From assembly GCA_030789695.1 (NCBI GenBank), contig CM061134.1, forward strand, positions 60,519,334 to 60,583,333: DNA of 64,000 nt. Reading direction: 5' to 3'. Below, piece by piece: positions 33,127 to 58,502 of this stretch. The notes under the pieces are model-generated. The model saw only the letters and a program-made list of their open reading frames with translations. It did not search any database and had not been told where the DNA came from. A program made the translations under genes and the position numbers. Numbering within the stretch: the first letter of the stretch is position 1; the number at the start of each line of letters is the position of its first letter. The DNA comes from Scilla litardierei (Eukaryota; Streptophyta; Magnoliopsida; Asparagales; Asparagaceae).

Positions 33127-33540
33127 TGTTGAATATTGGACTCCCCGGATTTGGTTTTGGATGATGAGCAAACATAAATAATTCATGAACTAACAATTTG
33201 TGAGCGCAGTATTGGAGATCGTCGCCAATTTCACGAGAATATTCAAAGCGACATCTCAACACTTCCAAAAGCTCGTATTCAAGCCTAAAGCTTCGTTGAA
33301 GCTCATGCAACGCTTTGGAAATAATGAAGATTCAATCGAAGCTCTCAAAGACCGTTTATTAAGGTTTTATTTATAGTCTTTTAGTTTCGATTGATAGAAT
33401 GTTAAGCCTTGAGTATATCTTACGTTTCTATCTTCATTTCGCTCATTTCGTAGCTCTAGGATTCTTGCACAAGTTCAATCTAATTTCCTCGAAGCGTCGC
33501 GCTTCGATTCGGACCTTGTTGTGCATGTTAGTTGGTACAA

Positions 33541-33977
33541 GAACAAGTACTGACCGACTAGATGGAGATCTAGTCGGTCGGCCACTGTTCTTGGACCGAC
33601 TAGTTTCAGTCAGTTAAATCTTTGTTCTTTACTGTTTACAGTTAGTCGGTCTACGTTGACTCACCGACCGACTAGTTTGTGAACTAGTCGGTCAGTGATG
33701 CTTCTTTGACCGACTAGTTGTGATTTACTGTACATGCCAAATTTCTCCTAAGCTACTGTTTTCCGTTAGTCGGTCTAAGAACGTTTGATGACCGACTAGT
33801 TGACAATCTAGTCGGTCAACTTTTGTTCTTGGACCGACTAAGTCAACTTGCCTTCAGACTAGTTTTCTAGGTCTGAAATTCTATCTCTTCTCTGATCTGC
33901 TCTTAGTCGGTCCATGCTTTGTGACTGACCGACTAGTTGATGAACTAGTCGGTCAGTGATTGTTCTTTGACCGACTA
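33541..33977. repeat. GACCGACTAG / CTAGTCGGTC palindrome array (Copia D 5' LTR)
   Basis: Four units of about 110 bp; units 2-4 each hold four cores in the order AGTCGGTC, GACCGACTAG, CTAGTCGGTC, GACCGACTA, and unit 1 has three plus a degenerate first core ('ttagttggtac'), 15 good cores in all. The middle two cores of each unit form a 10-bp stem with about an 8-base loop. Each core contains ACCGAC on one strand, the DRE/CRT core. The same array lies at 44032-44468 in the 3' LTR. Confidence 0.95.
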
Positions 33978-34032
33978 ATTCTCCCAGATTTCTTTCCGTT
34001 GGAGATTGACCTAACTTATGTTTTTGGGTTCC

Positions 34033-34040
34033 TATAAATA
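34033..34040 (+). promoter_or_regulatory. TATA box of Copia D 5' LTR
   Basis: TATAAATA preceded by CC, about 64 bp after the last palindrome core begins. The same box is at 44524-44531 in the 3' LTR. Confidence 0.8.
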
Positions 34041-34780
34041 CGAACCTAGGTCATTTCTATCTTCAATAGAGCTGCTATTAAGAGATTCATTGAGCCCTAA
34101 AGAGATAGCCATTCTCCCTCAAATCTAAAGCTCTCTTCCTCACAAGAAAGCCATTCTCTCTCATTTCTAGATCTAGAGAGAAGCTTGTTCTTGGTGAGCT
34201 CTTCAAGCTATTGCTTGATCCAAGTCTCCAACTCTTCCCTAGGCACCCATTGCTGCTCATTTCCTTGGTGCTAGGGCTTGGTGACTTCATCTTCCTCAAA
34301 TCCTTCATTCCACCTATTGGGTAAGAAAAACTCAAGGTATAGGATTTTGTGGTAAGAGTATTTATTTCATTTAAACTCTTTATATTGCTTATTGGCTCTC
34401 TCGGTTGTGAGAGAAGTTTGTGATCCCGGGTTGTGGGATTCACTTTGCCATTGCATGTATGATTTGATCTTGTGAAGGTTTTTCACAAGATATTCATAGT
34501 GGAAATCTTGAGTTAGGGTTTCTAACTCAAGTATCCGGAGGGGATCCGGGTGGTTGGGACGTAGGATCACCGGGAACAAGTCGGGGAGACTTGGGTGGAT
34601 CCGAACCCATTAACATCGTTTGTTAGCTTTGTTTATTTCATTGTTGTCAATCAATTTAAGCTTCCGCAAATTGATTTGGTGGTTGTTTGCAATTTAATTT
34701 GGAATTATACGCCTTATTATTTTAAAGTACTATTCACCCCCCCTCTAGTACTTGTGCAGTAGCTGGTAGGGCATTACATT

Positions 34781-34792
34781 TGGTATCAGAGC
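34781..34792 (+). promoter_or_regulatory. Primer binding site
   Basis: TGGTATCAGAGC, complementary to the 3' end of initiator tRNA-Met, two bases after the 5' LTR. Typical of plant Copia elements. Confidence 0.95.
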
Positions 34793-34805
34793 CAGATTCT
34801 CAGCT

Positions 34806-37046
34806 ATGTCTGCCAACGACAACAAGACCGTGCGTCCACCTTCCAACTATGACACCTTCAGGAACCGTGAAGGAGCATCTTCCGTGATGGAAGGACATTC
34901 CTCTACGAGGCCTCCATTCTTCAACGGTACCAACTACGGGTACTGGAAGTGTCGGATGGAAACCTTCCTCCGAAGCGCATCTTTATGGAGAACTACAATG
35001 AAGGAGTATATTGAACCCGAAGAAGAAGATTTTGAGAAATGGACTACCGCGGAGGTCGCCGCGGAGGTAAGCAATGCCAAGGCAATGAACGCCTTGCAAT
35101 GTGCATTGGAGCCCGAGGATTTCAATAAGATATGCACATGTAAGAGTGCATATCAAATTTGGAACTCCCTCCTCATTCTACACGAAGGGACGAGTAGGGT
35201 AAGAGACTCTAAACTCGTAGTCGTAACCAAAGATTACGAAATGTTTCATATGCAACAGGGCGAGAAGATGAAAGAATATTACGCTCGTTTCGTTGATATA
35301 ATAAACGAGTTAGAGGCCCTCGGCAAGATCTACACTCAAAAGGAGAAGTGCTTAAAGCTTATTGAAGGACTTCCCTCTTCTTGGGAAAAACGTACCTTCG
35401 CCATCGAGGAAGGTAATGACATGGACAAATATACCGTAGTTCAACTAATGGGTACTTTGATGTCATATGAGGTACGCAAAGATAGCAAGGTGAAGCTACA
35501 AGAAAAGATGAAGTCATATTTGAACCTAGATGCGCCTAAGAAAAAGGCGATTGCATTCAAGGCGGCTTCATCCACCTCTACCGATGATGAGAACTCGGAA
35601 GAAGAAATGGACATGGAATCCATTGCACTCATGGCAAAGAAGTTCAATCGCTTCTTCCGAAAGGGTAACTTCAAACACAAATCTAAGTTTACATCTACTA
35701 ACGCCTCTCCACCTTTGTGCTTTAAATGCAATAAGCCAGGACACATCAAAGCGGATTGTCCTCAAAACAAGCAAAAGGAGAAGTGGAAGGCGCCAAAGTA
35801 TGACAAGTCCAAGAAGTACACGAAAGAAAACAAGAAGGGACTTGTCGGAGCTACCTTCACCGACTCCGAGGATTCCTCAAGCGGAGAGTCGGACGATGAG
35901 CACGTGGAGCAAGCACACATGTGTTTCATGGCAAGAGAGGAGCACGATCAAGGATCCTCCTCTTCCGATGATAGTGATGAAGAAAGCGATGAGGTAACGA
36001 TGGATGATCTTAGGGATGCTAACACTCAACTTTGGTCAAAATATACTAAGTTAGTAAATAGATATACTAAGGTAAAAGATGACCTAGCTAGCATTCAAAC
36101 ATCGCCTAAGACTATCATCACCAACAACGACACCGTTGTTGAAGAGTTAAGAAAAGAGATAGTAAATCTCAAATCTAAACTTGAACATGTTAGCATTGAG
36201 GATGCGGAAGAACATGAGATAGCGGGTTTAACTTCTCAAAACTCGACTTTGAGTATTGAGAACGAGAATCTTAAATCTCGTGTTTATGTGCTCACTTCGC
36301 AAATATCCACTTTGGATACTTCCTTGCGTTCTCTCAAAGAGAAATATGAGGACACATTGGGCCGAATCAACAAATTCAACAAGGGTAAAGGCCATTTGGA
36401 TAATATCCTAAAAGATTTACTTCCGGCCAAGCACCACATTGGCTTGGGGTATATGATGGGAAATTCTTCCAAGTCGGTCACTACCTTTGTTAGGCCAACT
36501 TCCGAAGCCTCAACGAGTGGGAGCAAACACTCTATTGGTAGTTCATCTACCAATGGTGCTTCCACCTCGTCCACACCCTCTTTCGGAAAGAAACCCACAT
36601 TGGGTGGACCTCCAAAGAAGGGGCATGCTTATATGTACACCAATTCCATGCCACGTAGGAACACACGTCCTACTCCACCATCTCACACTTATGATGATTT
36701 TTATGCAACACATTCTCGGGCACGTGCACACCAAGTGAGACACCCTCACGCACGTGTTCCCACACATGCATATGTACACCCACCTCATCATATGAATAAT
36801 TCTCGTCGTGCACCATTCCATCATGTCCCGTATGCCTATCCACAACATGCATCACGTAGAAATCAACGTCGCATGCATGCACCCAATAGGATGATGGCTC
36901 CCAAAGTTTTCACGATTTGGAGCCCAAAGGACACAAGCATGGACGAAAAACAAATATATATGAATGCTTATTTTTCGGATGTTGTGCATAGTAAGAATTA
37001 TGTGGGGAAGTCTAAGTCCACTTGGACTTGGCTTCCAAAGGTCTAA
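34806..37046 (+). CDS. Copia D Gag polyprotein
   Basis: Forms the virus-like particle and packages element RNA. 746 residues from ATG 34806, the first ATG after the primer site. Order: UBN2-type capsid core (about residues 40-250), acidic linker, a CCHC knuckle CFKCNKPGHIKADC (about 305-318), acidic/serine region (350-395), coiled coil (about 400-530), Ser/Thr-rich linker and a His/Arg/Tyr-rich basic tail (about 620-700). The long coiled-coil extension is Sirevirus-like. The frame ends TAA 37044, just after 'TWLPKV'. Pol is in the same frame beyond a 60-base spacer that looks like an intron. Confidence 0.93.
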   Translation: MSANDNKTVRPPSNYDTFRNREGASSVMEGHSSTRPPFFNGTNYGYWKCRMETFLRSASLWRTTMKEYIEPEEEDFEKWTTAEVAAEVSNAKAMNALQCALEPEDFNKICTCKSAYQIWNSLLILHEGTSRVRDSKLVVVTKDYEMFHMQQGEKMKEYYARFVDIINELEALGKIYTQKEKCLKLIEGLPSSWEKRTFAIEEGNDMDKYTVVQLMGTLMSYEVRKDSKVKLQEKMKSYLNLDAPKKKAIAFKAASSTSTDDENSEEEMDMESIALMAKKFNRFFRKGNFKHKSKFTSTNASPPLCFKCNKPGHIKADCPQNKQKEKWKAPKYDKSKKYTKENKKGLVGATFTDSEDSSSGESDDEHVEQAHMCFMAREEHDQGSSSSDDSDEESDEVTMDDLRDANTQLWSKYTKLVNRYTKVKDDLASIQTSPKTIITNNDTVVEELRKEIVNLKSKLEHVSIEDAEEHEIAGLTSQNSTLSIENENLKSRVYVLTSQISTLDTSLRSLKEKYEDTLGRINKFNKGKGHLDNILKDLLPAKHHIGLGYMMGNSSKSVTTFVRPTSEASTSGSKHSIGSSSTNGASTSSTPSFGKKPTLGGPPKKGHAYMYTNSMPRRNTRPTPPSHTYDDFYATHSRARAHQVRHPHARVPTHAYVHPPHHMNNSRRAPFHHVPYAYPQHASRRNQRRMHAPNRMMAPKVFTIWSPKDTSMDEKQIYMNAYFSDVVHSKNYVGKSKSTWTWLPKV

Positions 37047-37100
37047 TCCCTTGGACCCAATGACCTTGGGTACCATGATATGAAACTTATCTATCTTTAG
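37041..37100 (+). other. Intron-like spacer between gag and pol
   Basis: Begins GTCTAATCC after AAG and ends TATCTTTAG before GTACTC. It is 60 bases, a multiple of three, and contains both in-frame stops (TAA 37044, TAG 37098). Removing it would fuse 'WLPK' to the basic start of pol in frame. Sixty bases is near the lower limit for plant introns and the donor is weak, so stop suppression or re-initiation are alternatives. Confidence 0.4.
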
Positions 37101-40100
37101 GTACTCAAGGAAAAGAAAAAGAAAAGGAGCAACAAATTTAAATTTAGCTCCAAAGGGAATTGGATACTCGATAGCGGGTGCTCCAAACACATGACGGGTG
37201 ACGCTCGATTTCTCTCCGGAGTGGTTCCCATTATGAATGGAAACCGCGTCGTATTTGGAGGCAACGAGAGCGGAACCATCATAGGTGTTGGTAATGTCGG
37301 TAACCCTTCTAAACCATTAATTAGTGATGTGTATCTTGTTAGTGGTTTAAATCATAATCTTATTTCAATAAGTCAACTTTGTGACAAAGGTTACAAAGTT
37401 AGCTTTGCGAAAGGATTGTGTCATATTTTAAGAAAGGATAATGAAAAATTATTATTTTCCGGAACTCGTCGTAAAGACATTTATATTTTGGATCTTCCTA
37501 AGTCATATGAACAATGTCTCGTTGCCAACACAAGTGAACAACACTTATGGCATCGACGCTTTGGACATGTGAACTTTGGAACACTATATAAGCTTTCAAA
37601 ATTGAATTCTATTAAAGGTTTTCCGAAGCTTGTTTTTGAAAAGAAAAGTTTTTGTGATTGTTGTCAACGCGGCAAGCTTCCTAAATCTTCATTTAAACCT
37701 AAGAAAAGCATCTCTACAAAACGGCCACTAGAGCTATTACATCTAGATTTATTTGGGCCAACTAGAGTAGCTTCCTTAGGAAATGCAAGGTATGGACTTG
37801 TCATCGTAGATGACTATTCAAGATTTACTTGGGTATTTTTCTTGTGCAATAAAAATGAAGCTTTTGAAAACTTCATAATTTTTGTTAAGAAAGTACAAAA
37901 TCTCTTAGGAAACACCATTGTCACTATTCGTAGTGATCATGGAGGTGAATTTGAGAATGAGTCTTTTGAGACATTTTGTGATGAAGTTGGTATTACTCAC
38001 ACCTTCTCTTTCCCTCGTGCACCGCCTCAAAATGGTGTAGTTGAGAGAAAGAATAGGACGCTAGTGGAGTGTGCTCGCACTATGCTTGATGATAGCCAAC
38101 TTGGCCATCAATTTTGGGCGGAAGCGGTACACACCGCTTGCTATGTGTTTAATAGAATACTTTTGAGGCCCGGCACTAAACAAACTTGTTATGAATTGTT
38201 GTTTGGTAGGTTGCCTCAAGTTAAACATTTTCGTGTTTTTGGTTCGAAATGTTTTATTAAGAACACATATGGTAGTTTGGACAAATTCGATCCGAGATCC
38301 GATGAGGGGATTTTTGTGGGATATTCTTCGCGTAGCAAAGCCTACCGGATATTCAACAAACGAACCTCGACGATCGAGGAGTCGCTTCATGTCTCATTTA
38401 ATGAAGGATTTGTTCCAACTAGAATTTCAAATGATAATGATTCTGTGGATGTTTTATGTGATTCATTTGATAATTCTAAGTCTATTGATTCTATTGAGAC
38501 TAACCCGACTAATGAAGTTGTTGAGAATGTTCCAAGTGATCAAGGTATTCCCAAGCGACTTCATGTCATTCGCGACCATCCCCATGAGCAAGTAATTGGC
38601 AATATTCAAGATAGTGTCAAGACAAGATCACAAGTTCACCACTTCGCCAATTGTGCCTTTGCCTCATCGATAGAGCCAAAGAATATAGTTGAAGCATGCG
38701 AAGATAGTGCTTGGATACTTGCCATGGAGGAGGAGCTCATTCAATTCGAGAGGAATGAAGTGTGGGAGCTTGTTCCATTGCCTTCGAAGAACCACACCGT
38801 CATAGGGACAAAGTGGATTTTCAAGAACAAAACCGACGAAAACCAAGTCGTCGTCCGGAACAAAGCTCGGTTAGTAGCTCAAGGCTATCGACAAGAGGAA
38901 GGTATTGATTTCGAAGAATCCTTCGCTCCGGTAGCTAGATTAGAATCAATTAGATTACTTTTGTCTTTTGCATGCCATAAGAATTTTAAATTATTTCAAA
39001 TGGATGTTAAAAGTGCTTTTTTAAACGGAGATGTCGTTGAGGAAGTTTACGTTTCTCAACCTCCGGGCTTCATAAATGAAAAATTTCCAAATCACGTTTT
39101 TAAACTAAAGAAAGCTCTTTATGGTTTGAGACAAGCTCCTCGAGCTTGGTATGATCGCCTAAAGAATTTTCTTTTGGATTTGAATTTTAAAATGGGCGAA
39201 GCCGATTCAACTCTTTTTGTTAAGCATGCGAATAATGATATTTTATTAGTACAAATTTATGTTGATGATATCATTTTCGGTGCTACTAACTTCACTCTTT
39301 GCGAAGAGTTTTCTAATGTTATGAAGGAACAATTTGAGATGAGCCACATGGGCGAACTCAAATATTTCTTAGGACTCCAAATTCGCCAAATGAACGATGC
39401 AATCTTCATCCACCAAACGAAGTACACGGTGGAGTTGCTAAAGCGATTTGGAATGGAGAATACCTCCGGGAAAAAGACTCCAATGAGCACGACTACGCAT
39501 CTTGACAAGGATACGGGCGGTAAGGATGTAGACATTCGTTTATATCGAGGTATGATTGGTAGTTTGCTTTATCTTACCGCAAGTAGGCCCGATATTATGT
39601 TTGCCGTATGTATATGTGCTCGTTATCAGTCTCAACCTAAGGAGTCTCACTTAGTAGCGGTAAAGCGTATTTTTCGCTATCTAAGTTACACTTTAGATTT
39701 TGGATTACTTTATCCGAGATCTAGCACATATGAGTTAATCTCATATAGTGATGCCGATTATGCGGGATGCAAATCCGACAGGAAAAGTACTAGTGGCACT
39801 TGCCATTTTATAGGAAATTCTCTTGTCTCTTGGTTTTCCAAGAAGCAAAATTCCGTATCACTTTCAACCACCGAGGCGGAATATATTGCCGCCGGTGCCG
39901 CGTGTGCTCAAGTTCTTTGGATGAGACACACACTTAAAGACTTTGGTATAAATTGTGATACTTGCCCTATCATGGTTGACAACCAAAGTGCAATATGTCT
40001 TTCCAAGAACCCGGTACATCATTCCCGTTCGAAACACATAGATGTCCGCCACCACTTTTTAGATGACCATGTTGCTAAAAAGGACATCATTCTAGTGTAC

Positions 40101-40208
40101 GTTGAAACCCAAAAGCAAATCGCCGATATTTTCACGAAACCCCTAAAGGAGGACTCCTTTGTGCGGTTGCGTCGAGAATTGGGGATTATGGGTGAATCCG
40201 AAATATAG
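37101..40208 (+). CDS. Copia D Pol polyprotein (PR-IN-RT-RH)
   Basis: Matures, reverse-transcribes and integrates the element. Open from 37101 to TAG 40206, about 1035 codons. Aspartic protease: [14 protein letters not shown] (about 37154). Integrase: zinc motif from HRRFGHVN to CDCC (37550-37670), then [16 protein letters not shown] and [11 protein letters not shown] carrying the D,D,E triad. Reverse transcriptase: [11 protein letters not shown] (about 39000) and YVDDII (39258). RNase [18 protein letters not shown] and STTEAEY (about 39870). No break seen. The ATG at 37191 lies inside the protease, so it is unlikely to be the true start; fusion to gag is more plausible. Confidence 0.93.
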
Positions 40209-40984
40209 GATTCATGTTTCATTCAATAATTTTGCATGCTATTATTCTTGACAATATCTCATTCATGCTAGAATTATTGGATTTTTCGAGAATTTTAAGT
40301 GTTATCTTAATTGTTCGTTCAATTTGTGCGTAATCGTCAAATTTCTGTTTTTCGATGTTTAATGGGGTAGTTTAGATGTCTATTGAGAGTTTTGAGATTT
40401 TTCGTCCAAGCGTATTATGGAGAGAACTTAATTTTCAAGTTTTTGACTCTTTAGTCGGTTCATGTTCAGTGACCGACCGACTAGATTGAGATCTAGTCGG
40501 TCAGTAATCGAACGCAGACCGACTAAATCTTGTCAGTCTTCTTGGATTCAGCCACTGTTTGCACCTAGTCGGTTCAAGCTCATTTACCGACCGACTAGTT
40601 TGTGAACTAGTCGGTCAGTGCTTGAACTGTGACCGACTAGTTGTGCCAGGGGCTGTTTGGTCATTTGGGAAATCGACCGACTTAAACTCAGTTTAGTCGA
40701 TCGATTTCCATTCTAATCGATCGAAAACTCAGTTCACTCCGCTCAAAACCCCGACCCTTCCCCTTCCGATCGACTTCCGGCCTCTTTCCGATCATCTCCG
40801 CCGTCGCCGGCCGTCGTTCTTCCTCCTAGGGTAAACCTACCTCCTCCCTCTCCTATCTAGGGTTTCGTTTTCAGCTCTAGGGTTAGGTTTCTCTGCCTAG
40901 GGTTCTAAATTTCTTCCTCTAGGGTTTCGGATTTCTAGGGTTGTGCTAGGATTCGTTGATTTGATCTCGTGTCTTGCTTCGACT
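40209..40984 (+). other. Spacer between pol and third ORF, with the LTR palindromes
   Basis: Two further quartet units of the AGTCGGTC / GACCGACTAG / CTAGTCGGTC / GACCGACTAG series lie at 40452-40538 and 40562-40645, with a diverged pair near 40671-40708. After them is a pyrimidine-rich leader with 'tctagggttt' repeats (40855-40940) and GT-AG pairs such as 40830-40860, so the third ORF may have its own spliced leader and promoter. Confidence 0.75.
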
Positions 40985-42682
40985 ATGGCAAGAACACGCA
41001 TTCCGATCCCTTCCTCTAACCCCTCTCCGATGACCGTTGATCCAACCTCTTCGGATCCCGAGCATCCAACCCCTACGAAGCGTAGAGCCAAGACCACCCA
41101 TCCTTCGTCGTCTTCGCCTCCTCTCAAGAAGAAGAGGACGACGACCGCCAAGCCTAGAGGTCAACCCAAACCCAAACCCAAACCTAAGCCAAAGGCCAAA
41201 TCTCTTGCCTCTCCTTCTTCTTTCCATACTCCTACCGATTCCGATACGGAGTATAATCCCGAGACCGAGACTCATAGGGAACCCTCTCCTCCTATTCATC
41301 CCGAGTCTAGCACCCACCCTCGTACGTCTTCTCGAAAGCCTAAGGGAAAGGCTCCGATGCCGGTGGGCGGTGTCGATATTTCCTTATGTCGCGATGACCC
41401 TTTGTGTCTTGCGGCATATAATCGTATCGAACATTGTCCGCTGCTTCTGGAGCATTTCGTCCTGTTCAGCGACTTCATAGGGCTAGCTGATCTTCTGTCG
41501 TCGTCGGGTCTTCTCGATTACCTTCGATTTGACCCGAAGGCGAATCCTCGCCCCTATCCTAGATTAGTGAAGCTTTTCTATGCCAATAGGATCCGGGGTC
41601 AGTACGATCAGACCCACTCTATTGAGACGACCGTTTTGGGGACTCATATAGTCCTCACTGCAGAAATCTTAGGAGAGATTCTGGGTATCTCTTCGTCTGG
41701 CCTTCTTCCTTCTGATATCTCGGTAGATGATATTTCCTCTCTTGACCAGACCATCCTATCAGAGATTTTCCATCAGATTCCTCCTGCTTTGATTGGCGTG
41801 CCCTCTAAATCTTTTAAGCCAAATGCTTGGGTCCTAAATTTGATTCTGAAGTCGTGCTTGCTTCCCAAGTACGGCTCCTCATCTTTGCCATCCCAGCCAT
41901 TTTTGAAGCTTATCTATGCGATCTTCATGGGGAGCTCGATTAATTGGGCTCGAATTATACTCAACAAGATTGATTCTTTCGAGTGTATTCGAAAGTCCAA
42001 TAAATCGGCTCATATTCCTTTTCCTTGCATGTTGACCCTCGTGTTTCGTCACTTTCGTGTCACATTGCCTCGTGACGATGAGCGTCCCCTCGGTCCTCCG
42101 CTGAATGCGACGGCCGTCAAGAAATCTCTTGCGGCGCTTCGTCACGTTCAGAGGACGACTCCTTCAGCGTCTGTCCCTGCCTCTGCCACTGCCTCTGCTT
42201 CTCCCGTTGCCACCCTTGATGACGTCGTCCGGATACTTCTTCGTCACGAGTCCCGCTTGGCTCGTACCGAGGAGGTGGTCTGCCGTATGGCACGTCAGAT
42301 GGGTGTTGAGCTTCCTCCTTCCGTGTCTGAGGGAGAGGAGATGGATGAGATGGATGAGGAGGACGTTGAGGAGATCTGTCGTGCTTCGACTCGTGCCCCC
42401 AAGGGCACTTCAGCTGCTGCTGGTACTTCCACTTCTGCTCCTGGAGTTGCCACCTCTTCCGGTGTTCCAGAGCCATCTGCTGCTGATCCAGTTTCCGAGC
42501 CTGCTCATGTATCTGCTGCTGCTGCTTCTGTCGAGACTCCTGCTGCTGTTGAGCCTGTTGCTGAGATCTCGACTCCTGCCCCGACGATTCCATCTGTTGA
42601 GACACCTCTGCTCCCTGCAAATCCTGAGTCCACTCCGTCGACTGGACCCACGGACGCTGCAGATCCTGCCTCCTCCTCGTGA
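40985..42682 (+). CDS. Copia D third ORF (Sirevirus 'envelope-like' position)
   Basis: 565 residues from ATG 40985. Low-complexity Pro/Ser/Lys-rich basic N-terminus (a PKPKPKPK run), a globular middle (about residues 130-370) including LVKLFYANRIRG, resembling the Pfam 'putative plant transposon protein' family, a helical segment near 400-450, an acidic EGEEMDEMDEEDVEE patch, and an Ala/Pro/Ser-rich C-terminus. I see no signal peptide or convincing membrane segment, so an envelope role is not supported by sequence. Copia B encodes a broken homologue (61556-62957), so the middle domain is conserved across related elements. Function unknown. Confidence 0.8.
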   Translation: MARTRIPIPSSNPSPMTVDPTSSDPEHPTPTKRRAKTTHPSSSSPPLKKKRTTTAKPRGQPKPKPKPKPKAKSLASPSSFHTPTDSDTEYNPETETHREPSPPIHPESSTHPRTSSRKPKGKAPMPVGGVDISLCRDDPLCLAAYNRIEHCPLLLEHFVLFSDFIGLADLLSSSGLLDYLRFDPKANPRPYPRLVKLFYANRIRGQYDQTHSIETTVLGTHIVLTAEILGEILGISSSGLLPSDISVDDISSLDQTILSEIFHQIPPALIGVPSKSFKPNAWVLNLILKSCLLPKYGSSSLPSQPFLKLIYAIFMGSSINWARIILNKIDSFECIRKSNKSAHIPFPCMLTLVFRHFRVTLPRDDERPLGPPLNATAVKKSLAALRHVQRTTPSASVPASATASASPVATLDDVVRILLRHESRLARTEEVVCRMARQMGVELPPSVSEGEEMDEMDEEDVEEICRASTRAPKGTSAAAGTSTSAPGVATSSGVPEPSAADPVSEPAHVSAAAASVETPAAVEPVAEISTPAPTIPSVETPLLPANPESTPSTGPTDAADPASSS

Positions 42683-43617
42683 TCGTTGTTCCGAGGACTC
42701 TCCATATACACTTTGGATGATGTATTCTAGTGAGAGAGTTTTGGGTTAGGATGGGGTTGAGAGTTGCCTTGTTGTATTGCTTTTGTGCTTTCTGATTGTC
42801 GGTGTTGGATTGTATGATATGTTGATGATGATGTATTTCTTTTTGATGATATGTAGCACTTGATATGATGTATCTCTTATATTCGATGTGATATCTTTTG
42901 GATGTACTCATGTTGTCTCTATGTATATATATGTTCATCATCGACCACTTTATCTTTTATTCGTCGTGCAAATTAAATATTCGTTGAATATATTTGAAAT
43001 GTGATATCGAATCGACGCATAAAAAGTTGGTTAAATGGATTTTATAGAATTGTTTTCCATGCTCAAAATTAACCAAGAATATTGAATATTGAAGAGTATG
43101 TTTCTTTATTCAAGACATGAATAAACATTTGGTATTTTTTGATGATTTTGATTATCATTGATTTTTATTGATAATGGAAAATTTGACACACCTTGTTTTG
43201 ATTTCCACATTTTTCCCTTGGTGTTAAGTTGGTCCATTGTCTTCGTCTACGACTCCCGATGTTGGATTTTACATTTCCTAATTGTTGTCGTTGTATGCCC
43301 CACATTTTTGGGATAATGCCAAAGGGGGAGAGATAATGATAATAAATAGCGCAAATGAAAAATTTAACTCAATTTCCAAGAATCTAGTTTGATATGTTAG
43401 ATTCAGGGGGAGTTAAGATACAAATAAGGATTTTCAAAATCCGATATTTCAAAAATCAATTCACTTTATTTATCTTACTCGTCTGCTTGATACAATTCAT
43501 TTATATTCATTTTGGAATTAACGTGTCATCAATGCAGGGGGAGTAAGTATTTTACATTTGAATTATTATCTTTGATTATTATTTATGTTGGTTTGTCATC
43601 ACCAAAAAGGGGGAGAA
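42683..43617 (+). promoter_or_regulatory. 3' non-coding region with repeated polypurine tracts
   Basis: Purine tracts of the form 'ggggga(g)' occur at about 43324, 43407, 43537 and 43606; the last ('aaaaagggggagaa') abuts the 3' LTR and should prime plus-strand synthesis. Multiple polypurine tracts are a reported Sirevirus feature. Confidence 0.8.
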
Positions 43618-45269
43618 TGTTGAATATTGGACTCCCCGGATTTGGTTTTGGATGATGAGCAAACATAAATAATTCATGAACTAACAATTTGTGAGCGCAG
43701 TATTGGAGATCGTCGCCAATTTCACGAGAATATTCAAAGCGACATCTCAACACTTCCAAAAGCTCGTATTCAAGCCTAAAGCTTCGTTGAAGCTCATGCA
43801 ACGCTTTGGAAATAATGAAGATTCAATCGAAGCTCTCAAAGACCGTTTATTAAGGTTTTATTTATAGTCTTTTAGTTTCGATTGATAGAATGTTAAGCCT
43901 TGAGTATATCTTACGTTTCTATCTTCATTTCGCTCATTTCGTAGCTCTAGGATTCTTGCACAAGTTCACTCTAATTTCCTCGAAGCGTCGCGCTTCGATT
44001 CGGACCTTGTTGTGCATGTTAGTTGGTACAAGAACAAGTACTGACCGACTAGATGGAGATCTAGTCGGTCGGCCACTGTTCTTGGACCGACTAGTTTCAG
44101 TCAGTTAAATCTTTGTTCTTTACTGTTTACAGTTAGTCGGTCTACGTTGACTCACCGACCGACTAGTTTGTGAACTAGTCGGTCAGTGATGCTTCTTTGA
44201 CCGACTAGTTGTGATTTACTGTACATGCCAAATTTCTCCTAAGCTACTGTTTTCCGTTAGTCGGTCTAAGAACGTTTGATGACCGACTAGTTGACAATCT
44301 AGTCGGTCAACTTTTGTTCTTGGACCGACTAAGTCAACTTGCCTTCAGACTAGTTTTCTAGGTCTGAAATTCTATCTCTTCTCTGATCTGCTCTTAGTCG
44401 GTCCATGCTTTGTGACTGACCGACTAGTTGATGAACTAGTCGGTCAGTGATTGTTCTTTGACCGACTAATTCTCCCAGATTTCTTTCCGTTGGAGATTGA
44501 CCTAACTTATGTTTTTGGGTTCCTATAAATACGAACCTAGGTCATTTCTATCTTCAATAGAGCTGCTATTAAGAGATTCATTGAGCCCTAAAGAGATAGC
44601 CATTCTCCCTCAAATCTAAAGCTCTCTTCCTCACAAGAAAGCCATTCTCTCTCATTTCTAGATCTAGAGAGAAGCTTGTTCTTGGTGAGCTCTTCAAGCT
44701 ATTGCTTGATCCAAGTCTCCAACTCTTCCCTAGGCACCCATTGCTGCTCATTTCCTTGGTGCTAGGGCTTGGTGACTTCATCTTCCTCAAATCCTTCATT
44801 CCACCTATTGGGTAAGAAAAACTCAAGGTATAGGATTTTGTGGTAAGAGTATTTATTTCATTTAAACTCTTTATATTGCTTATTGGCTCTCTCGGTTGTG
44901 AGAGAAGTTTGTGATCCCGGGTTGTGGGATTCACTTTGCCATTGCATGTATGATTTGATCTTGTGAAGGTTTTTCACAAGATATTCATAGTGGAAATCTT
45001 GAGTTAGGGTTTCTAACTCAAGTATCCGGAGGGGATCCGGGTGGTTGGGACGTAGGATCACCGGGAACAAGTCGGGGAGACTTGGGTGGATCCGAACCCA
45101 TTAACATCGTTTGTTAGCTTTGTTTATTTCATTGTTGTCAATCAATTTAAGCTTCCGCAAATTGATTTGGTGGTTGTTTGCAATTTAATTTGGAATTATA
45201 CGCCTTATTATTTTAAAGTACTATTCACCCCCCCTCTAGTACTTGTGCAGTAGCTGGTAGGGCATTACA
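43618..45269 (+). repeat. Copia D 3' LTR
   Basis: 1652 bp, same length as the 5' LTR, with the single difference I noticed at 43969. Followed by the GAGAG target duplicate. Confidence 0.95.
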
Positions 45270-45274
45270 GAGAG

Positions 45275-46612
45275 GAGAAGCCCTTTCTCTTGCCTGCACC
45301 AATTGCCTAGATGATAACTCTTTGGTTCTAGGTTGGAGAGCAAGAGATCAAGGATTTGGAAATCTTAGGGCTTTGGATTTGAGAGCTTTAGACTTTTGAA
45401 AATGAAAGCTTAAGATCAATGAGTATAGCTTAGCTTGAATGGGAGTAACCCTTCAATGTAACAGTAGAAGCCCTATTTATTGGTTTCTCAAATCCATAAA
45501 ACAGTTTGGGCAAAAAATCTTTTGGAATCCGTGAGAAAATTCTCAACGAATAGAAACTGCACCCGCAACAGTCGACTGATGAAGAAACCTCAGTCGACTG
45601 ATGCACAGTCAGCATGGGTAGGTAAGAATTCATAACGGTAACTTACCACGTGGACAGTCGACTGATGAAGCAAAGACAGTCGACTGTTAAACCAACAGAC
45701 GACTGTAATTACTTCTACAGGCGACTGGCCGACAGATGGTAAGTAGAAAGAAATCTGGAAATCCTGTAAGATAACAGGACAGACGACTGATGAGGATAAT
45801 ACAGTTGACTGTTAATCAGAACATGCGACTGTAAATCCTTATACAGACGACTGTCAAATACCTTGAGAGCTTCCAGATAGCTAAGTCAATAAATTGGCTC
45901 ACAGACAGACGACTGTTGCAGCATACACAGTCAACTGGTCCAAGAGACAGTCGACTGTATATTCAACATTAGTCGACTGACCGTAAGAGGCAGATCAAAA
46001 TATTTTGGGCAGAAGGATAGACAGGCGACTGATTTACAAAACACAGTGACTGTCACCAGGACAGGCGCCTGTGAATCTTTCATCAGTGGCCTGTGCGAAA
46101 TAAACAAAAATGCCCAAAACTTGATTGCAAAAGCTTGTGCATAACAGGCGACTGTAGAACAAAACACAGTCGACTGTTTTTGAGACAGGCGACTATAAAA
46201 TGTTAATCAGTTGATTGTTATACATAATCCTGGCACAAACAATGAACAAATGAATTGGGGTCAAAGGACAAATGATCTAATGATGTCCAACGACCAAATG
46301 TAGATGTGTGTGAGTGCTCCATCAAGGTTCTACTTCTAAGATACATACTAGAAGAGATAAAAGAAAATTACATTTGACGAATAATCTCTTTTTTCCATCG
46401 TATGAGCTTGAAGTCTTCACGGAGCTTCAATCATCATCTACGATCATCCAATCCATGTAATTTGCCTTCAATGATCATTGTGAGTCATCCATTGCTAGTA
46501 GATCTTCATAAATAGTTTAGGAAATGGATTAACTGCAAAATAGGGGATTAGTCACAAGTATTTATGTTTGCTCATCATTAACACCAAGTAAGGAGAAGTC
46601 CAATACTCAACA
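45275..46612 (-). mobile_element. Copia B 3' LTR, proximal part
   Basis: On the minus strand the LTR starts TGTTGAGTATTGGACTTC at 46612 and runs left to the Copia D insertion; with 32639-33126 it totals about 1.83 kb. A TATA-like 'aataaatagggc' (minus) is near 45470-45482, just downstream of the palindrome cluster. Confidence 0.85.
45555..46215. repeat. CAGTCGACTG palindrome cluster in Copia B LTR
   Basis: More than 20 copies of (A)CAGTCGACTG or one- to two-base variants (acaggcgactg, agacgactgt, cagttgactg) spaced about 20 bp apart. The consensus is a perfect 10-bp palindrome containing a SalI-type GTCGAC. In element orientation the cluster lies directly upstream of the TATA-like box. Confidence 0.9.
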
Positions 46613-47286
46613 TTCTCCCCCTTTTGATGATGACAAACAAACATAAACAAAGAGATAAATAATTGTGCGTAATGAAAACTTACTCCCCCTACATAGATGC
46701 CAATCAAGTTAGTCAACAAATATTAGGGCATCTACATATCAATTGAAGCAAATGAGAAGATATGCATGAATATAATTCAAGAAATCTAGGAATTAAAATC
46801 CCTATTCATTGTACTCTTACTCCCCCTGAATCTAAGGCAACTTCAATCTTAGATTCAAAGTGTTAGAACATACTTAGCACATTCATTATGAATCTTGTAT
46901 ATTTATTTCTCTCCCCTATGGCATTATCCAAAAAGGTGGGAGTACATAACAACAACAATAATAGTGCTAAATACGAAGTAACAACAATCAAGGAGTATAG
47001 AGATATATCGAATTAAAACTCATAAAATCACATCATATACACATGTGAATAATGGAATTGAAGTCCAATATCAACATTTTAGATATACAAAACGAAAATA
47101 GTTTCAAAACTGCATCACATCAGAGATAACATGAAATATCCAAAATCAAATCCACATTGTCTCAAAAACACATCAAAGAGAGTATATCAAACTTGGAGAC
47201 AACATAATCATACATCACACAGAGAAGATAAACATTACAGCATAGTGTGACACATGATAAAGCAGCAACATCATATATATATATAA
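46613..47286 (-). promoter_or_regulatory. Copia B repeated polypurine tract region
   Basis: On the minus strand 'gggggag' tracts occur at 46613-46626 (abutting the LTR), about 46682, 46822 and 46912, the same arrangement as Copia D. The region ends in a short (AT)n at 47273-47286 where the LINE begins. Confidence 0.75.
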
Positions 47287-47288
47287 TA

Positions 47289-47974
47289 TTCTAAAGAGAT
47301 CAGTCCCTGTTGAGTTGGATGATCTATCCACTATTTTCATCGATATCCAGTATGAAGGAGAACCCCCAAGATGTGGAGCCTGTGCCTGTTTTGGTTATCT
47401 GGACTCTCAGTGTACTAGGAAGGATTTTGTAGCTCAGACTGGCCCTCCTGGTGATGGGAATGTTGTAAATTTGCCTAATGACCCTGATGTTGTGACTGAA
47501 GGGGCTTCCCTTAATAATCTCTTGAAGAAGGACATTGGGTCCTCTTCTAATCAGTCTGCTGTTAATGTGGGCTTGCCTATTGTGTTGACCAGCAATAGTC
47601 ACACACCTCCTATCATTGAATTAGGGGAGTGCAGCACATCTTGTTCGGCCTCAGCTAATCCTGGGCCTAAAAAGAATAGGCTATCACCCCTGGTTGGAGT
47701 TGTGCACATCCTCAAGTTGATTAATTCTCTCCGCAAGCCACAGGGCAAACCGGCTTCAGTCAATTCCGATGGCCAGCAGGAACCCACTATGAATGTGAAT
47801 GAGCCCACTACTTGCCAAGAGCATCCTCCCCCCGGTATTCTAACTGTCCCTAATCCCCTTTGGGATGTTGAGCATGCCAGCCTTTTGAAGAACCGTGCTC
47901 TTGCAAAAGGAACCAAATCTCAAGTTCCACCTTCACCTTCACCTGTTAGACGGAGTCCCCGGATTGCCTCTTGA
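47289..47974 (+). pseudogene. LINE ORF1, C-terminal fragment
   Basis: Nucleic-acid-binding ORF1 protein of plant L1 elements. Only the C-terminal part is present: the EGEPPRCGACACFGYLDSQC knuckle (the usual His is Tyr-Leu here, so zinc binding may be impaired), then a Ser/Pro-rich tail ending SPVRRSPRIAS. The N-terminal RNA-binding part is missing. TGA at 47972. Confidence 0.75.
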
Positions 47975-48010
47975 TTTGGGTAATATTTTATTTCTTCATT
48001 ACCTGTCTTA

Positions 48011-51000
48011 ATGTCGATCTTATTTTGGAATACTAGGGGACTTAACAATTCTACTCGTTGTGCGGATCTGAAGCTTTCTTTAAAGAAGCTAAATCCATCT
48101 ATAGTTTGCTTATTAGAAACGAAGGTGGAGGGTACTAATTCTTCCCGTATCTCAAGATGTTTTACATCTGATTGGGGCTCCATGGATAATAGGAGCCATC
48201 ATAAAGGGGGCCGTATAGTTATATACTACAAGTTGTCTGTCTGGAATTGTATTGCAATTTCTTCATCTTCTCAACATATTTCTACCAAGTACACCAACTC
48301 GGCAGGTATGGTTATGGGTTTAACTGCTGTTTATGGCTTTAATTTGGCAAGCTCAAGAACGGCACTGTGGGACAATCTTATCTCTGACTCCATTATTCTG
48401 ATGAATTCTCCTTGGATTGTTGGAGGAGACTTTAACTGTGTTCGCCTTTCTAATGAGAAAAAGGGTGGCCGTCCAGTTGATGTGGTATCTATGAATGATT
48501 TCAACCACTGTATCCATGTTTGCAATCTAAATGAGCTTAAAAGCGTTGGTTGTCCTCTTAGCTGGACCAACAGGCGTGTGGGTGATAATCGTATTTCAGC
48601 ACGTCTTGATCGCATTCTCTGTAATTCTCGCTGGCTAGATCTTTTGCCGTATTCTTATTATGAATATCTTCTTGCTAGTACCAGCGACCACTCCCCTATG
48701 ATGGTTAATCTACTTCCCATGGTAACCTCCTTTCCTAAGCCATTCAAATTCTATAATTCATGGGTATCTTCGGCAGGATATAAGGAATTGGTGCGGAAGC
48801 ATTGGGTTAATTTCTCAGCCGGGTCTACCAACCCTTTACTGCGGCTTTCTTCTATTCTCAAAGGCCTTAAGGTCAAATTGAGGAACTGGTCCTTGGTGCT
48901 TAGAAATAATGAGGCCTCTACTAAATTTTGCAATCACCTGGAGACTTTGCAAGCTAATGACCTGATTACCTCTGACGCAAGGCTCCAGCTCATGGAGGGT
49001 ACGGCCTTGAAGGAACTGATGCTTGCTCTTTCTAAAGAAGAAGATGATCTTCGGCAGAAGAGCCGACAAAATTGGTTGACGTTAGGGGATATAAATTCTA
49101 AAATTTTCTACACTGCTATGAAAGTAAGACAGAGTTATAACTCCCTGGGCCACTTGATCTCTGCTGTTGGGGCTAGGAGCTACAATACGGATGGCCTTCA
49201 AACCGAGGCATCTCAGTTCTATAAGGAACTCTATCATCAAATTGACTATTGGAATGTGTTTCCAAAGTTAACTCCTAAACGTTTGCTCACTCAGGATGCT
49301 GCTGATTGGTTGGACAGGCCGATATCTCCCTCTGAAATCAAGATTGCTTTATTCCAAATAGGCAAAGACAAAGCTCCTGGCCCGGATGGGTTTAATTCCT
49401 TCTTCTTCTAGCAGGAATGGGAGGTAATTGGTCCTGATGTGGTATCGGCTGTCTCCTCTTTCTTCACTACTGGTTGCATGCCTCCCGCTGTTTGCCACAC
49501 TTTCCTCACTCTGGTACCTAAACATACCAATGCTTCTGGCTTAGGGGACTACAGGCCTATTTCTTGTTGCACTGTCCTTTAAAAAATTATTAGTAAAGTC
49601 TTATGCAACAGACTGAAGCCTGTTATTTTAGATCTAATTTCGCCTAACCAGGCCGCCTTCTTGCAAGACAGGTTATTGGCAGATTGTACTCTAATAGCAC
49701 ATGAGCAGATCCGTGATTTCAGTAATCTGATGGGGTCCAGGGCATGCCTAAAGTTGGATCTCCATAAGGCCTTTGACAGCGTTAATAGAGAATTCATTTA
49801 TTTTATCCTGCACCAAATGAGATTCTCCCATCGATTCATAAATTGGATTGCTATTTGTATATCTTCCCCGGTGTTTTCGGTACTTGTTGAAGGTTCTCCA
49901 GTTGGCTATTTCAATTCTAATAGAGGCCACCGACAGGGGGACTCCCTCTCACCCTATCTTTTTGTCCTTGTAATGGAAGCTTTCACGCTTCTTATGGCTC
50001 TTGCAGAATCTTCAGGTACTATATTACCCATGCGTCGCACTGGTGCTATTTCTCATCTCCTATTTGCTGATGATCTCTTAGTGTTCTGTCGGGCTAACAC
50101 GCATTCTTTCAAGGGCATCACAGAGTTATTAGAAAGTTTCAAGCTTTTCTCTGGCTTGCAGATAAATTGGGAAAAGAGTGCGGCAATTTTTAGTAAAGGA
50201 GTTCGTAATGCTAGTAACCTTTCTGATATGCTTGGTATTAATATGGTTACCTCTTTCAAAGTATATTTGGGCCTCCCGCTTTCCTCCAAATATCCTAAAG
50301 CATCAATGTTTTCCAGACTTGTGGATAATTGTAAAAAAAGACTTTTGGGTTGGTCTTCCTCCCTTCTATCTATCTCAGGAAAGATCGAGTTGGTTAGAAC
50401 AGTGATATATGGTATGGTGGCTTTCTGGATGCAGGCCTATTGTTTACCTAAGTCAGTTATTCGTAGTATCAACACAATATGCAGGAAGTTTATTTGTGGC
50501 AAGCTAAATATTTGGTCTTGGAAAGAAATGTGTACACCAAAAAAAGAGGGCGGAGTCGGCCTGAGATCCCTTGAAGATTTGAATGTTGCTTCTGGGATTC
50601 GCCTAACATGGAGAGTATTATCTACTAAAGGTTTTTGGGCAAAATTCATGAGAAATCGCTATGGCCAGGTCAAATATGGCTTTTTTGGAACTAAAGCGAG
50701 GCCCACTGACTCGGGATCATGGAAGTTCTTGTTGAAATACCGGGCTCAATCCCAAAAGCTTATAAAACGTGTGGTGAATGATGGCAAAACTACTTCATTT
50801 TGGTATGACAACTGGCATCCTAATGGCCCACTTCATCTTCTTCAAGAGCCGAGCCAAGAATACGTTATGGCACGAGTAAGTGACTTCTGGGAGGGGTCGG
50901 GGTGGAGCTTAAATTCTGAAATTGATGGGGTAAGGCATCTCCTACAGAATATTACACTAGGTGAGGGGCCGGATGTATGGAAATGGGTGCCTGGGCCGGC

Positions 51001-51355
51001 CTTCAGCCTTTGTGCGGCTTGGGAAGGTGCAAGATCAGCTGGAACTCCTTTTAAATATTTTGATTCTATTTGGTTTCCTAATCATGTGCCTAAATTTGCC
51101 TTTACTTTGCTTAAGGCAATTCGGAATAAGCTCCATACTATTGAGCTTCTTACGAAAAGAGGGCTTCAATTTGATCCTTCATGTGTACTCTGTGCTGCGG
51201 ATATCCCTGAGACGATTTCGCATATTTTTTTCGACTGTGAGTATACAAAATATATCCTAACCAGGGCTCTATTAAAGTTGCGCTTCACATGTGCTTACCC
51301 GAACTCTATCCAAGGAGTCTGTGATCTCTTTCAGGCTACATACAGGAAGAAGGAC
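48011..51355 (+). pseudogene. LINE ORF2: endonuclease and reverse transcriptase
   Basis: Nicks target DNA and copies element RNA in place. From ATG 48011: AP-endonuclease domain (WNTRGLNN at the start, LLETKVEG, GGDFNCVR, SDHSPM), then RT (KAPGPDGF, LKLDLHKAFDSV, RQGDSLSPYLF, FADDLL at 50065), then a zf-RVT domain with CVLC...H..F.C (about 51180-51240). In-frame stops at 49409-49411 (TAG) and 49580-49582 (TAA) interrupt RT; the frame otherwise continues unchanged. The last codons are at the AGGAC target duplicate; the C-terminus resumes at 60928. Confidence 0.9.
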
Positions 51356-51643
51356 TGTAACGACTGGTTTTCTTGTATATGAATTTATTATAATATAATA
51401 TATGTTTTGGTGGATTTTCTCCTCTTGTGTGGTTTGCGTCTCCGTAACTTTCATTTTCGATCGATTCGTCGTATTTTCTCGTTTCTTCCTTAGGATCGTC
51501 GATTTCGAAGTACGTCGTTTGTGACGGGCTTCATAACGGTCATATCTAACTATTAGATCAAGCCTAGGAGTCTTAGGATTCGATCTCGGGGCCTCGCGCT
51601 CCGTATCGAAACTTTCTGTGCTCATTAGCCGGTATAAGAAGGG

Positions 51644-52050
51644 GCACCGACCGACTAGATGACGATCCAGTCGGTCGGCAATCCTTCTTGGACCGACTAG
51701 TGAGCTTTCTAATTTTCTAAGGAAGCTACTGTTTATCGTTAGTCGGTCTAAGAAGATTAGTTGACCGACTAGGTTGCAAACTAGTCGGTCGGCGATGCTT
51801 CTTGAACCGACTAACACATCATCTTAATTTTAGTTGGGTTACTGTTTACTCTTAGTCGGTCTAAGAACGTTCATCGACCGACTAGTTTCTAAACTAGTCG
51901 GTCAGTACTTGTTCATGGACCGACTAACTCTAAATCCTATTTTCGTTCAGGAGTTACTGTTTACACTTAGTCGGTCTGCGTTGGTCGACCGACCGACTAG
52001 TTGCCAAACTAGTCGGTCAGTGGTTGTTCTTTGACCGACTAGTCTGTGTT
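51644..52050. repeat. GACCGACTAG palindrome array (Tekay 5' LTR)
   Basis: Four units in the same order and numbers as in Copia D: unit 1 with a degenerate first core ('ttagccggtat') plus three, then three full quartets, 15 good cores. The last unit ends 'ttgttctttgaccgacta', identical to Copia D over those 18 bases. The copy in the 3' LTR is at about 58804-59210. Confidence 0.95.
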
Positions 52051-52941
52051 AAAACCCTAATTTCTGGGCAGCCGCCAGCCCAACCTATAAATACCCCTCC
52101 CAAACGTTTCTTCTTCCTCCAACACGACCTAAAGCCCTAGTTTCTCCCCCATTGAGCCCCCATCTTCCTCCAAGCTTCAATCCTCCATTCCAAGCCCTAG
52201 AATCATCATCCAATCCATCCATTCACCCTATCTACTTCTAATCTTCCCCAAATCTCCATCAAAACCCACCAAATCCCCAAAATCCCCCAAAACCCTAGTT
52301 TCCCCAAACTTCTCCAATCTTCTCCAGATCTGGTCCTAGGGTTCCCCGGAGTGTTTCTTCCGCCTCCTCTCGGTAAGAAATCGAACTACCGTTGTTTTCT
52401 TATCTTATTGTAATTTTTATGAAACCCTAATAAAATACTTGTGTTTTGATGATTGTTCCCCATAACAGAGATTCCCCGTAGCCTAGCATTCGCGGAATCG
52501 AACTTTCGTAACCGTCATCCCCGGTGTTAGGCAAGTGAAACTTGCATCTCTTGATTTGGGCCATGTCTTAGGCCATTACCTTGTTTTAGCGTAAAAGAGA
52601 CTAAACGGTGAAAGGATAGCCGTTTAGACGCCATTGACCTAGCTTGACAACGAAGCTTGGTCCGTCACCCTCATCATGCTTGTATGTCACGTTTAAATTC
52701 AATTAACGGTACGCAATCATTTGTTCATGTCATTGCATAGTGATAAATTATTGTGATTGTGTAGCACACGCTACAACATTATATTCCTGGCTCGTGTTCC
52801 AGAAGCGAGCCCTGTAGTTGGAAACCCCAACGCTCGGATACCGGCTAGGCACCCACTTTTCGTGGGCACAACCCTATGCCAAATACACTTCCTGGCACGT
52901 GATCCAGAAGCGAGCAAATGCTCGATACACGTAGGGGTGGG

Positions 52942-53105
52942 GTAAGAGATATGCGTCACCAGAGCACGAGATGGCCTGATCCGCCACTCCAGCCTGCAGG
53001 CGAAATATCTAGTGTTTAAGTGAGTAAGAGATATGCGTCACCAGAGCACGAGATGGCCTGATCCGCCACTCCAGCCTGCAGGCGAAATCTCTAGTGTTTA
53101 AGTGA
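52942..53105 (+). repeat. 82-bp tandem duplication in the Tekay LTR
   Basis: Unit starts 'gtaagagatatgcgtcacc' at 52942 and again at 53024. It is also present in the 3' LTR (60102 and 60184), so it predates this insertion. Confidence 0.9.
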
Positions 53106-53318
53106 TTAATAGTGATAAGTGATAAATGATAAGTGATTATGATTTGGTAGCTTTCGCTACATCGTGCGTGCTTGCCTCTCTTTTAAACTGTTGCATCATA
53201 CTTAACTGCCATATCATTGCTTAATATTATAAGTGCTAGGTTGCTAGTTACTTTCAGTTTCCTTGCCCAAGTCTTTTTAGACTTGCTGACATGTGCCCCT
53301 CTCTCTTTTGGGTGACGC

Positions 53319-58469: not shown

Positions 58470-58502
58470 GTATTCGGAAATTCCGAGGACGGAATTTTTC
58501 TT

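Follow-up and report, generated by a model that had tools for sequence, protein, structure and literature searches.

Arrays of factor-binding sites in long terminal repeats (LTRs) and recombination between related LTRs are both known kinds of phenomena. Tobacco Copia elements of the Tnt1/Tto1 type carry tandem boxes in the U3 region of the LTR, and their U3 varies within one Copia family; we know of no Gypsy partner of these boxes. For ONSEN/ATCOPIA78 and EVADE/ATCOPIA93, PMC12786077 describes HSFA2 acting on heat-responsive elements and WRKY factors acting on W-boxes, respectively. In the VANDAL DNA transposons, according to PMC5735166, the anti-silencing proteins called VANC are known to target tandem repeats in non-coding regions of transposable elements. 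Here we analyze a stretch of 64,000 nucleotides from Scilla litardierei (the window, 60519334-60583333 of sequence C5 in a genome of 3.68 Gb), in which a Copia element and a chromovirus-type, Tekay-like Gypsy element share one block of sequence, an upstream flank followed by an array of palindromic units, ahead of the TATA boxes of their LTRs.

The locus has tandem enhancer boxes within a modular U3 in common with the Tnt1/Tto1 type, where the variation is, however, confined to a single Copia family. As in ONSEN and EVADE, short motifs upstream of the LTR start site would recruit a host factor, but here the motifs form four to six phased inverted-repeat units, and one block is common to Copia and Gypsy. 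Buildup of a short motif through tandem repeats in non-coding parts of the element also recalls VANDAL and VANC; the VANC targets of PMC5735166 differ among related elements, whereas here one array spans two retrotransposon superfamilies. Among the matches listed in the open full-text literature, with subscription journals mostly outside, there was no description of a U3 block shared between Copia and Gypsy. As delimited by the comparisons below, the shared block is about 570-810 bp long, with a flank of about 100-150 bp and four to six palindromic units. Our reading, which rests on sequence comparison and to which we assign a probability of about three in four, is that the block reflects common descent in a Copia clade and a Tekay-like Gypsy clade, that it crossed once before both diversified and was inherited vertically thereafter, and that it serves as an enhancer of phased sites.

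The arrays are evident from the positions of their cores. They lie where a preliminary description of this DNA placed them: the Copia stretch 33541-33977 holds 15 exact copies of AGTCGGTC/GACCGACT, and the Gypsy stretch 51644-52050 holds 14 and one more with a single mismatch; dinucleotide shuffles of these stretches (500 each) contained 0.032 and 0.036 cores on average, with maxima of 1 and 2. The whole window has 66 cores versus a shuffled mean of 0.92 and a maximum of 4 (50 dinucleotide shuffles). The same description correctly counted four units per array, recognized the first core of unit 1 as degenerate in both, and noted that the final 18 bases, TTGTTCTTTGACCGACTA, are identical between the two arrays. 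Both 3' LTRs carry the same arrays as the 5' LTRs. Within a unit the cores are laid out as F-22-R-20-F-22-R, with F and R the two orientations and distances in bp from start to start, and a linker of mostly 44-73 bp follows. Across 23 stretches, 121 of 125 F-to-R neighbors are 22 bp apart (exact cores within 140 bp), and the R-to-F neighbors divide into 63 at 20 bp and 55 at linker distances of 44-91 bp. The gap between array and TATA box, previously given as 50-65 bp, is actually 56 bp to TATAAATA in Copia and 45 bp in Gypsy; a TATA-like box follows the array after 56-74 bp in 6 of 6 Copia LTRs and after 45-49 bp in 10 of the 12 Gypsy LTRs examined, the pattern not being matched in the other two, L022 and L026. 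Note that in the linkers of both superfamilies a TACTGTTT-like word precedes the next unit, with the majority letters of columns -14 to -7 present in 59-89% of 71 units. A further, telobox-like word, AAACCCTA, is present in 12 of 12 Gypsy pieces, close behind the array in most Gypsy rows, and in none of the Copia pieces.

A first set of 71 units came from 17 stretches, namely 14 LTRs and three Copia interiors, and a later set of 92 units from 21 stretches; all were recognized through their cores with up to 9 mismatches in 32 letters. The fetched loci, numbered with the prefix L, represent about 20 array-bearing elements, most of them located near the beginning of a single chromosome; other carriers may therefore exist. 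L001-L006 are overlapping cuts, by position apparently of one element's two LTRs, and only L001 was counted; L008 overlaps L007, and L040 and L041 possibly represent both LTRs of a single element. L007, L031, L034 and L035 were called Gypsy and L038, L040 and L041 Copia by LTR homology only, and the interior stretches L037 and L039 matched nothing coding.

The similarity of the units extends beyond the cores and follows their rank. First units of Copia and Gypsy are 0.66 identical at non-core positions (40 pairs), while unit 1 reaches only 0.36-0.41 with last or middle units of the other superfamily; middle units match one another at 0.53, and in the segment-shuffled control the mean is 0.28 and the 99.9% point 0.47. 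In a tree of the 92 units, made like the flank tree below without L040 and L041, the first units of 6 Copia and 12 Gypsy rows, 18 in all, group together as a single clade with a support of 100/98, the label 'first' requiring a single change. The Copia/Gypsy label requires 8 changes, only 2 of them forced by supported branches, and as this tree has few columns only its supported forks count; a second mixed group of the fifth units of three Copia and the last units of five Gypsy elements (86/99) is not counted as shown. The unit tree had been set beforehand as a test, and separate deep Copia and Gypsy clades without a shared order were not found for the units.

Homology continues into the upstream flank. 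A Copia flank profile matches 12 of 12 Gypsy LTRs with E values from 7e-6 to 3e-26 and reaches about 97-152 bp upstream of the first core, and all 6 Copia flanks are matched by the Gypsy flank profile (E 4e-8 to 6e-19); with shuffled or reversed flanks the best E was 0.13 among 252 Gypsy controls and 2.1 among 126 Copia controls. The start limits originally claimed for the shared sequence were too narrow, homology beginning further upstream in both LTRs: by the joint profile the flank spans 33376-33529 in Copia and 51473-51626 in Gypsy, and by the other superfamily's profile alone it begins at 33396 and 51528. In blastn the window pair aligns from 33488-33977 to 51585-52041 with 69.8% identity over 497 columns, and Copia L040 aligns with two Gypsy loci, L034 (73.0% over 619 columns, E 3.6e-93) and L007 (71.1% over 643 columns, E 3.6e-74). 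The two L040 alignments start 84-98 bp upstream of the array's first core and stop at the last core; for comparison, L040 and the Copia of the window match best, locally, over 573 columns (70.7%) that comprise the flank and first units. Past the last core, matches of the Copia profile in Gypsy were no better than E 6.2. As homology ends at the last core, each superfamily keeps its own LTR ends, TATA box, R and U5. Permissive whole-LTR local alignments ran far beyond the block, most of them at 55-63% identity, and profile searches were therefore preferred.

These data bear on convergence, that is, on the same array having been built twice under selection by a host factor. Cores and spacing do look constrained, so that selection acts on the motif, but spacers, linkers and some 100-150 bp of flank are homologous too and in the same order, and with this convergence falls; we regard it as extremely improbable. 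Transfer between superfamilies, which the preliminary description had offered side by side with convergence, stands on the agreement of spacers and linkers by rank, on the first-unit clade and on the flank profiles.

As evidenced by the tree of whole blocks, which comprises 18 of 20 blocks (8 Copia and 10 Gypsy rows, without L001 and L029), there is a single split between the superfamilies, supported at 99/98, and five-unit blocks alone (4 Copia, 4 Gypsy) yield the same single split at 100/100. Whole blocks thus separate by superfamily, which argues for one old event and not for repeated exchange. Ongoing exchange had been hinted at by first-unit identities, with TekayB_L007 at 0.87 to Copia_L027 and 0.80 to Tekay_W, and by the 8 label changes in the unit tree; it was rejected, having found no support in the whole-block tree. 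Protein identity to the window copies is 58.5% for a Copia gag in L033, located between the LTR arrays of the L032 element, and 77.8% for a Gypsy pol in L036, which is flanked by the LTR arrays of the L022 element. Both clades therefore look old, and the sharing is probably older than the spread of both.

A separate capture of the block by each superfamily from a third source, be it a host promoter, a satellite or another element, would also leave the same block amid different surroundings, the expected trace of two captures, and a third carrier could escape a sample of this size. We nevertheless place this on the unlikely side: the block has coinciding ends in both superfamilies, beginning some 85-150 bp ahead of the array and stopping with its last core, both share the degenerate first core, and every array in the loci sampled was assignable to a Copia LTR, a Tekay-like LTR or a Copia interior, some by LTR homology only. 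As regards the direction of transfer, two relatives of the Tekay-like element, L010 and L018, with pol identities of about 71% and 61-75% at the amino acid level, have 1 and 0 cores in the 10 kb taken, and the shared part of the flank was not matched in these 10-kb stretches; L018 weakly matches the Gypsy-only part of the profile (E 8e-4), and L010 has a fragment of the Copia-only part.

A number of observations weigh against common descent through a single crossing. The pattern expected from direct transfer is identical to that left by independent captures from a third source, and nothing in the sample polarizes the event: where flanks lacking an array were sought at the start of C1, all 19 of the 19 listed lay beside one. 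A tree built on the flank and unit 1 gives the Copia/Gypsy split without support (57/0) and places Gypsy L022 and L026 with Copia against the other 10 Gypsy (99/98), a grouping that is compatible with the split without showing it. Last units match each other at 0.49 outside the cores, below the value for middle units, although at 0.79 in spacer 3, and spacers find their best match at the same rank for only 1 to 3 of 5 units, or for 3 of 4 in the pair of the window. Compared pairwise, only 5 of 8 Copia/Gypsy flank pairs exceed the maximum of 200 shuffles, and that of the window falls short of it (254 versus 290), so that the case for the flank rests on the profiles and the other copies. The reverse search downstream of the array gave a 28-bp match at E 1e-4 and another at E 0.041, both in Copia_W, 1 of 6 Copia pieces, and 2 of 4 permissive downstream alignments surpass the maximum of 200 shuffles (283 versus 249 and 220 versus 217). 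Finally, the contrast between core identity (0.92-0.98 between Copia and Gypsy) and spacer identity (0.635-0.675; 8 pairs) is affected by the recognition of units through their cores, which inflates the figure for core conservation.

Cores, arrays and flank were counted across the genome, whose assembly comprises 13 very large sequences, C1 to C13, with 825 Mb in C13 and 146-358 Mb in each of the remaining twelve. GACCGACTAG was counted 416,547 + 415,531 times (about 832,000), versus 4,604 + 4,575 (about 9,200) for the reversed control. A flexible three-core pattern, with 6-22 and 1-20 free bases, matched 186,091 + 186,162 places and its reversed control none; among 100 such matches listed, 99 span exactly 50 bases and one spans 49. 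The inner palindrome with exactly 8 free bases between its arms occurs at 238,470 places, and its control at 0. Extrapolation from the 100 listed matches, which fall into 43 arrays at the start of C1, yields approximately 80,000 arrays. The flank word CGCTCATATCTTAG was found at 9,593 + 9,389 places against 1 + 0 for the control; of 19 places listed in the first 1.307 Mb of C1, 17 are within about 440 bp of a three-core array match, and the remaining two, L040 and L041, carry arrays as well. If our reading is true, and both clades amplified after the block came to be shared, then retrotransposon control regions are able to pass by themselves from one superfamily to another, and what lets a retrotransposon win a genome becomes testable with one block and one binder.

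Regarding mechanism, template switching in mixed particles, or else recombination between nested copies, may have brought the block into U3 at a place between the TATA box and the end of the LTR; the recipient's own integrase ends, TATA box, R and U5 would thereby have been left intact. The arrangement of array and TATA box reads as the anatomy of a promoter-proximal enhancer. The 20- and 22-bp steps each amount to roughly two helical turns, and the 42 bp between same-oriented sites to four, so that all sites of one unit would face the same side of the helix. A unit, consisting of an outer, two inner and another outer half-site at distances of 22, 20 and 22 bp, could dock a dimeric or tetrameric DNA-binding activator, and given their varying linker lengths the units look like separate docking sites. 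The array would drive transcription from the TATA box 45-74 bp downstream. The putative binder is most likely a host factor. All exact cores contain ACCGAC, which agrees with the form (A/G)CCGAC and which we take to be the dehydration-responsive element/C-repeat (DRE/CRT) core of DREB/CBF factors; unlike in DRE/CRT elements, the conserved letters here extend into TA and the sites are inverted pairs at fixed spacing. The conserved TA after ACCGAC and the fixed pairing are unexplained by a single DREB monomer. Each core also retains one CpG, a dinucleotide easily lost under methylation: core segments have 10.6-12.5 CpG per 100 bp and other segments 1.2-3.2, where the core CpG belongs to the motif used in finding the units.

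An alternative role, which would count against the enhancer part of our reading, is that the palindromes act as RNA or cruciform structures, in transcript 3' end formation, in packaging, or as double-stranded RNA for silencing or escape. Every unit is an imperfect palindrome, and the array in the 3' U3 is within the genomic RNA. Four of 20 non-core column pairs also pair more often than in any of 200 shuffles: 63/70 (0.77 versus 0.48), 45/88 (0.62 versus 0.44), 44/89 (0.59 versus 0.50) and 50/83 (0.47 versus 0.35). The other 16 did not beat all shuffles, however, and the core letters are fixed rather than covarying, 14 of 16 core pairs being without a double change and the other two showing it in 4 and 1 units. 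Symmetric half-sites of a dimer predict the same covariation, moreover, and the relatedness of the units inflates it, so that we hold a structural role to be distinctly unlikely.

The Copia element has a third, internal array between pol and ORF2, the additional open reading frame downstream of pol. This array also occurs in the Copia interiors L025 and L028, and the internal units constitute a clade of their own (100/100). Among the inner-palindrome places listed, the internal signature appears between paired LTR arrays at 252-263, 386-418, 729-740 and 786-796 kb of C1, and is absent from those listed for a 5.4-kb element at 719-725 kb. The short Copia L032/L033, with LTR arrays 5.4 kb apart, a gag and by its length little room for a full pol, has no internal palindrome among the places listed, and is possibly a deletion derivative. 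The simplest reading is that the internal array may be a second promoter, acting on ORF2 as the LTR array would on its own TATA box; no TATA-like box was found within 300 bp past it.

This arrangement raises the question of whether ORF2 is itself the binder, a Copia-encoded trans-activator or anti-silencing factor on which the block-bearing Tekay elements would live. An own array upstream of ORF2, found in three Copia interiors including that of the window, and the precedent of VANC (PMC5735166) speak for this. The protein, however, matches PF20167, with only a weak additional match to QRPTase_N (E 0.16), and unlike in the VANDAL system the VANC domains DUF1985/DUF287 were not found by Pfam searches to E 10, where filtering removes most matches beyond about 0.1. 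Among the sequences in the PDB there was no convincing relative of solved structure (best E 0.22), two protein searches gave one weak relative and none, respectively, and the predicted fold, with a mean predicted local distance difference test (pLDDT) score of 39, was unusable. ORF2 was accordingly set aside as a known DNA binder, these searches having given nothing usable, and the idea that it binds the block is decidedly improbable. A broader proposal, in which a mobile cis-regulatory cassette crossed superfamilies and placed tens of thousands of Copia and Gypsy copies under a single factor that may be ORF2, making the Gypsy elements parasites of a Copia activator, is a tentative one that we doubt. 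A Transposase_32-like frame at 62010-63038 on the minus strand, just past the Gypsy element, is 42% identical to ORF2 over 231 columns, with a Pfam score below the cut-off.

Both elements are well defined in the window (Table 1). Membership of the first in Ty1/Copia follows from RVT_2 with the integrase core upstream of it, a copia-type gag and the 5-bp duplication; an initiator-Met primer site TGGTATCAGAGC is present at 34781, and ORF2 is an extra open frame after pol, which we take to be a trait of the SIRE lineage. Among the 120 matches listed, of 7,375, to the Copia pol, the best one spanning most of pol is 66% identical and none is above 72%. In the second, the order of pol is that of Ty3/Gypsy, with RVT_1 (228-387) and RT_RNaseH (478-575) upstream of the integrase core, followed by Integrase_H2C2 (687-741) and rve (761-856), the latter at 30.5 bits slightly below its cut-off of 32.6. 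Stops at 57926 and 58229 interrupt the pol frame of this copy, and the match of its last piece to Chromo (E 1.2e-4, 22.4 bits) is below the cut-off of 25.1. After the Gypsy 5' LTR, near 53761 and in 53762-53790, TGGTATCAGAGC was not found on the plus strand with up to 2 mismatches, which bears on the placement of the lineage and not on Gypsy membership. The names SIRE and Tekay are given by nearest fit only. Judging by LTR identity, both insertions look recent. Paired LTRs and 5-bp target duplications in both elements exclude an assembly duplication; although the sequence is highly repetitive, these features, the whole-genome counts and the occurrence of different families on C1, C5 and C9 leave an artefact of assembly or duplication a negligible probability.

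Table 1. Features of the two elements and their arrays in the window
Feature	Position	Strand	Remarks
Copia element, whole	33127-45269	+	
Copia target-site duplication GAGAG	33122..33126	+	5 bp; second copy 45270-45274
Copia 5' LTR	33127..34778	+	1652 bp, TG...CA; 3' LTR 43618-45269; 1 difference/1652 bp
Copia U3 shared block (flank and 4-unit array)	33376..33977	+	3' LTR copy 43867-44468; upstream limit from joint profile
Copia unit 1	33530..33601	+	first core degenerate
Copia unit 2	33644..33715	+	
Copia unit 3	33768..33839	+	
Copia unit 4	33905..33976	+	
Copia TATAAATA (TATA box)	34033..34040	+	
Copia GTAAGAAA donor-like site	34321..34328	+	
Copia gag	34806..37046	+	Retrotran_gag_2, zinc knuckle
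Copia pol	37101..40208	+	integrase core rve 208-308, RVT_2 552-796
Copia internal array, between pol and ORF2	40453..40702	+	two good units 40453-40524, 40567-40638 and a decayed piece
Copia ORF2	40985..42682	+	565 amino acids, Transposase_32 PF20167, basic N-terminus
Gypsy element, chromovirus type, Tekay-like, whole	51356-60922	+	
Gypsy target-site duplication AGGAC	51351..51355	+	5 bp; second copy 60923-60927
Gypsy 5' LTR, Tekay-like	51356..53761	+	2406 bp; 3' LTR 58516-60922; 17 differences and one gap, 2406 columns
Gypsy U3 shared block (flank and 4-unit array)	51473..52041	+	3' LTR copy 58633-59201; upstream limit from joint profile
Gypsy unit 1	51627..51698	+	first core degenerate
Gypsy unit 2	51741..51812	+	last core with one mismatch (51805)
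Gypsy unit 3	51854..51925	+	
Gypsy unit 4	51969..52040	+	
Gypsy TATAAATA (TATA box)	52086..52093	+	
Gypsy GTAAGAAA donor-like site	52373..52380	+	
Gypsy gag	54022..55065	+	
Gypsy pol open frame	55131..57926	+	protease, RVT_1, RNase H, integrase core
Gypsy integrase C-terminal pieces	57927..58469	+	Tf2-1-like SH3 57927-58229; chromodomain-like piece 58230-58469

The equal distance from the TATA box to the donor-like site GTAAGAAA had been put forward as a further likeness of the two LTRs. The distances themselves are as claimed, 288 bp in Copia and 287 bp in Gypsy, but the agreement fails across families. GTAAG sites are found 281-297 bp past the TATA box in the six Copia LTRs examined and 285-286 bp past it in those three copies of the window's Tekay family that extend far enough, and none of the searched forms of the site occurs within 600 bp after the array in L007, L031, L034 and L035, the four remaining Gypsy LTRs that match the TATA pattern and have more than 500 bp downstream. 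A common splice-donor distance was thus rejected as part of the module, and the match is judged a coincidence of family traits outside the block.

Two further observations concern the Gypsy element and its surroundings. Its LTR contains two head-to-tail copies at 52942-53112, about 82 bp apart and 97% alike over 89 columns. Between 47984 and 51382, open frames that by eye resemble a long interspersed nuclear element (LINE), with endonuclease-like and reverse-transcriptase-like parts, reach the Gypsy insertion site.

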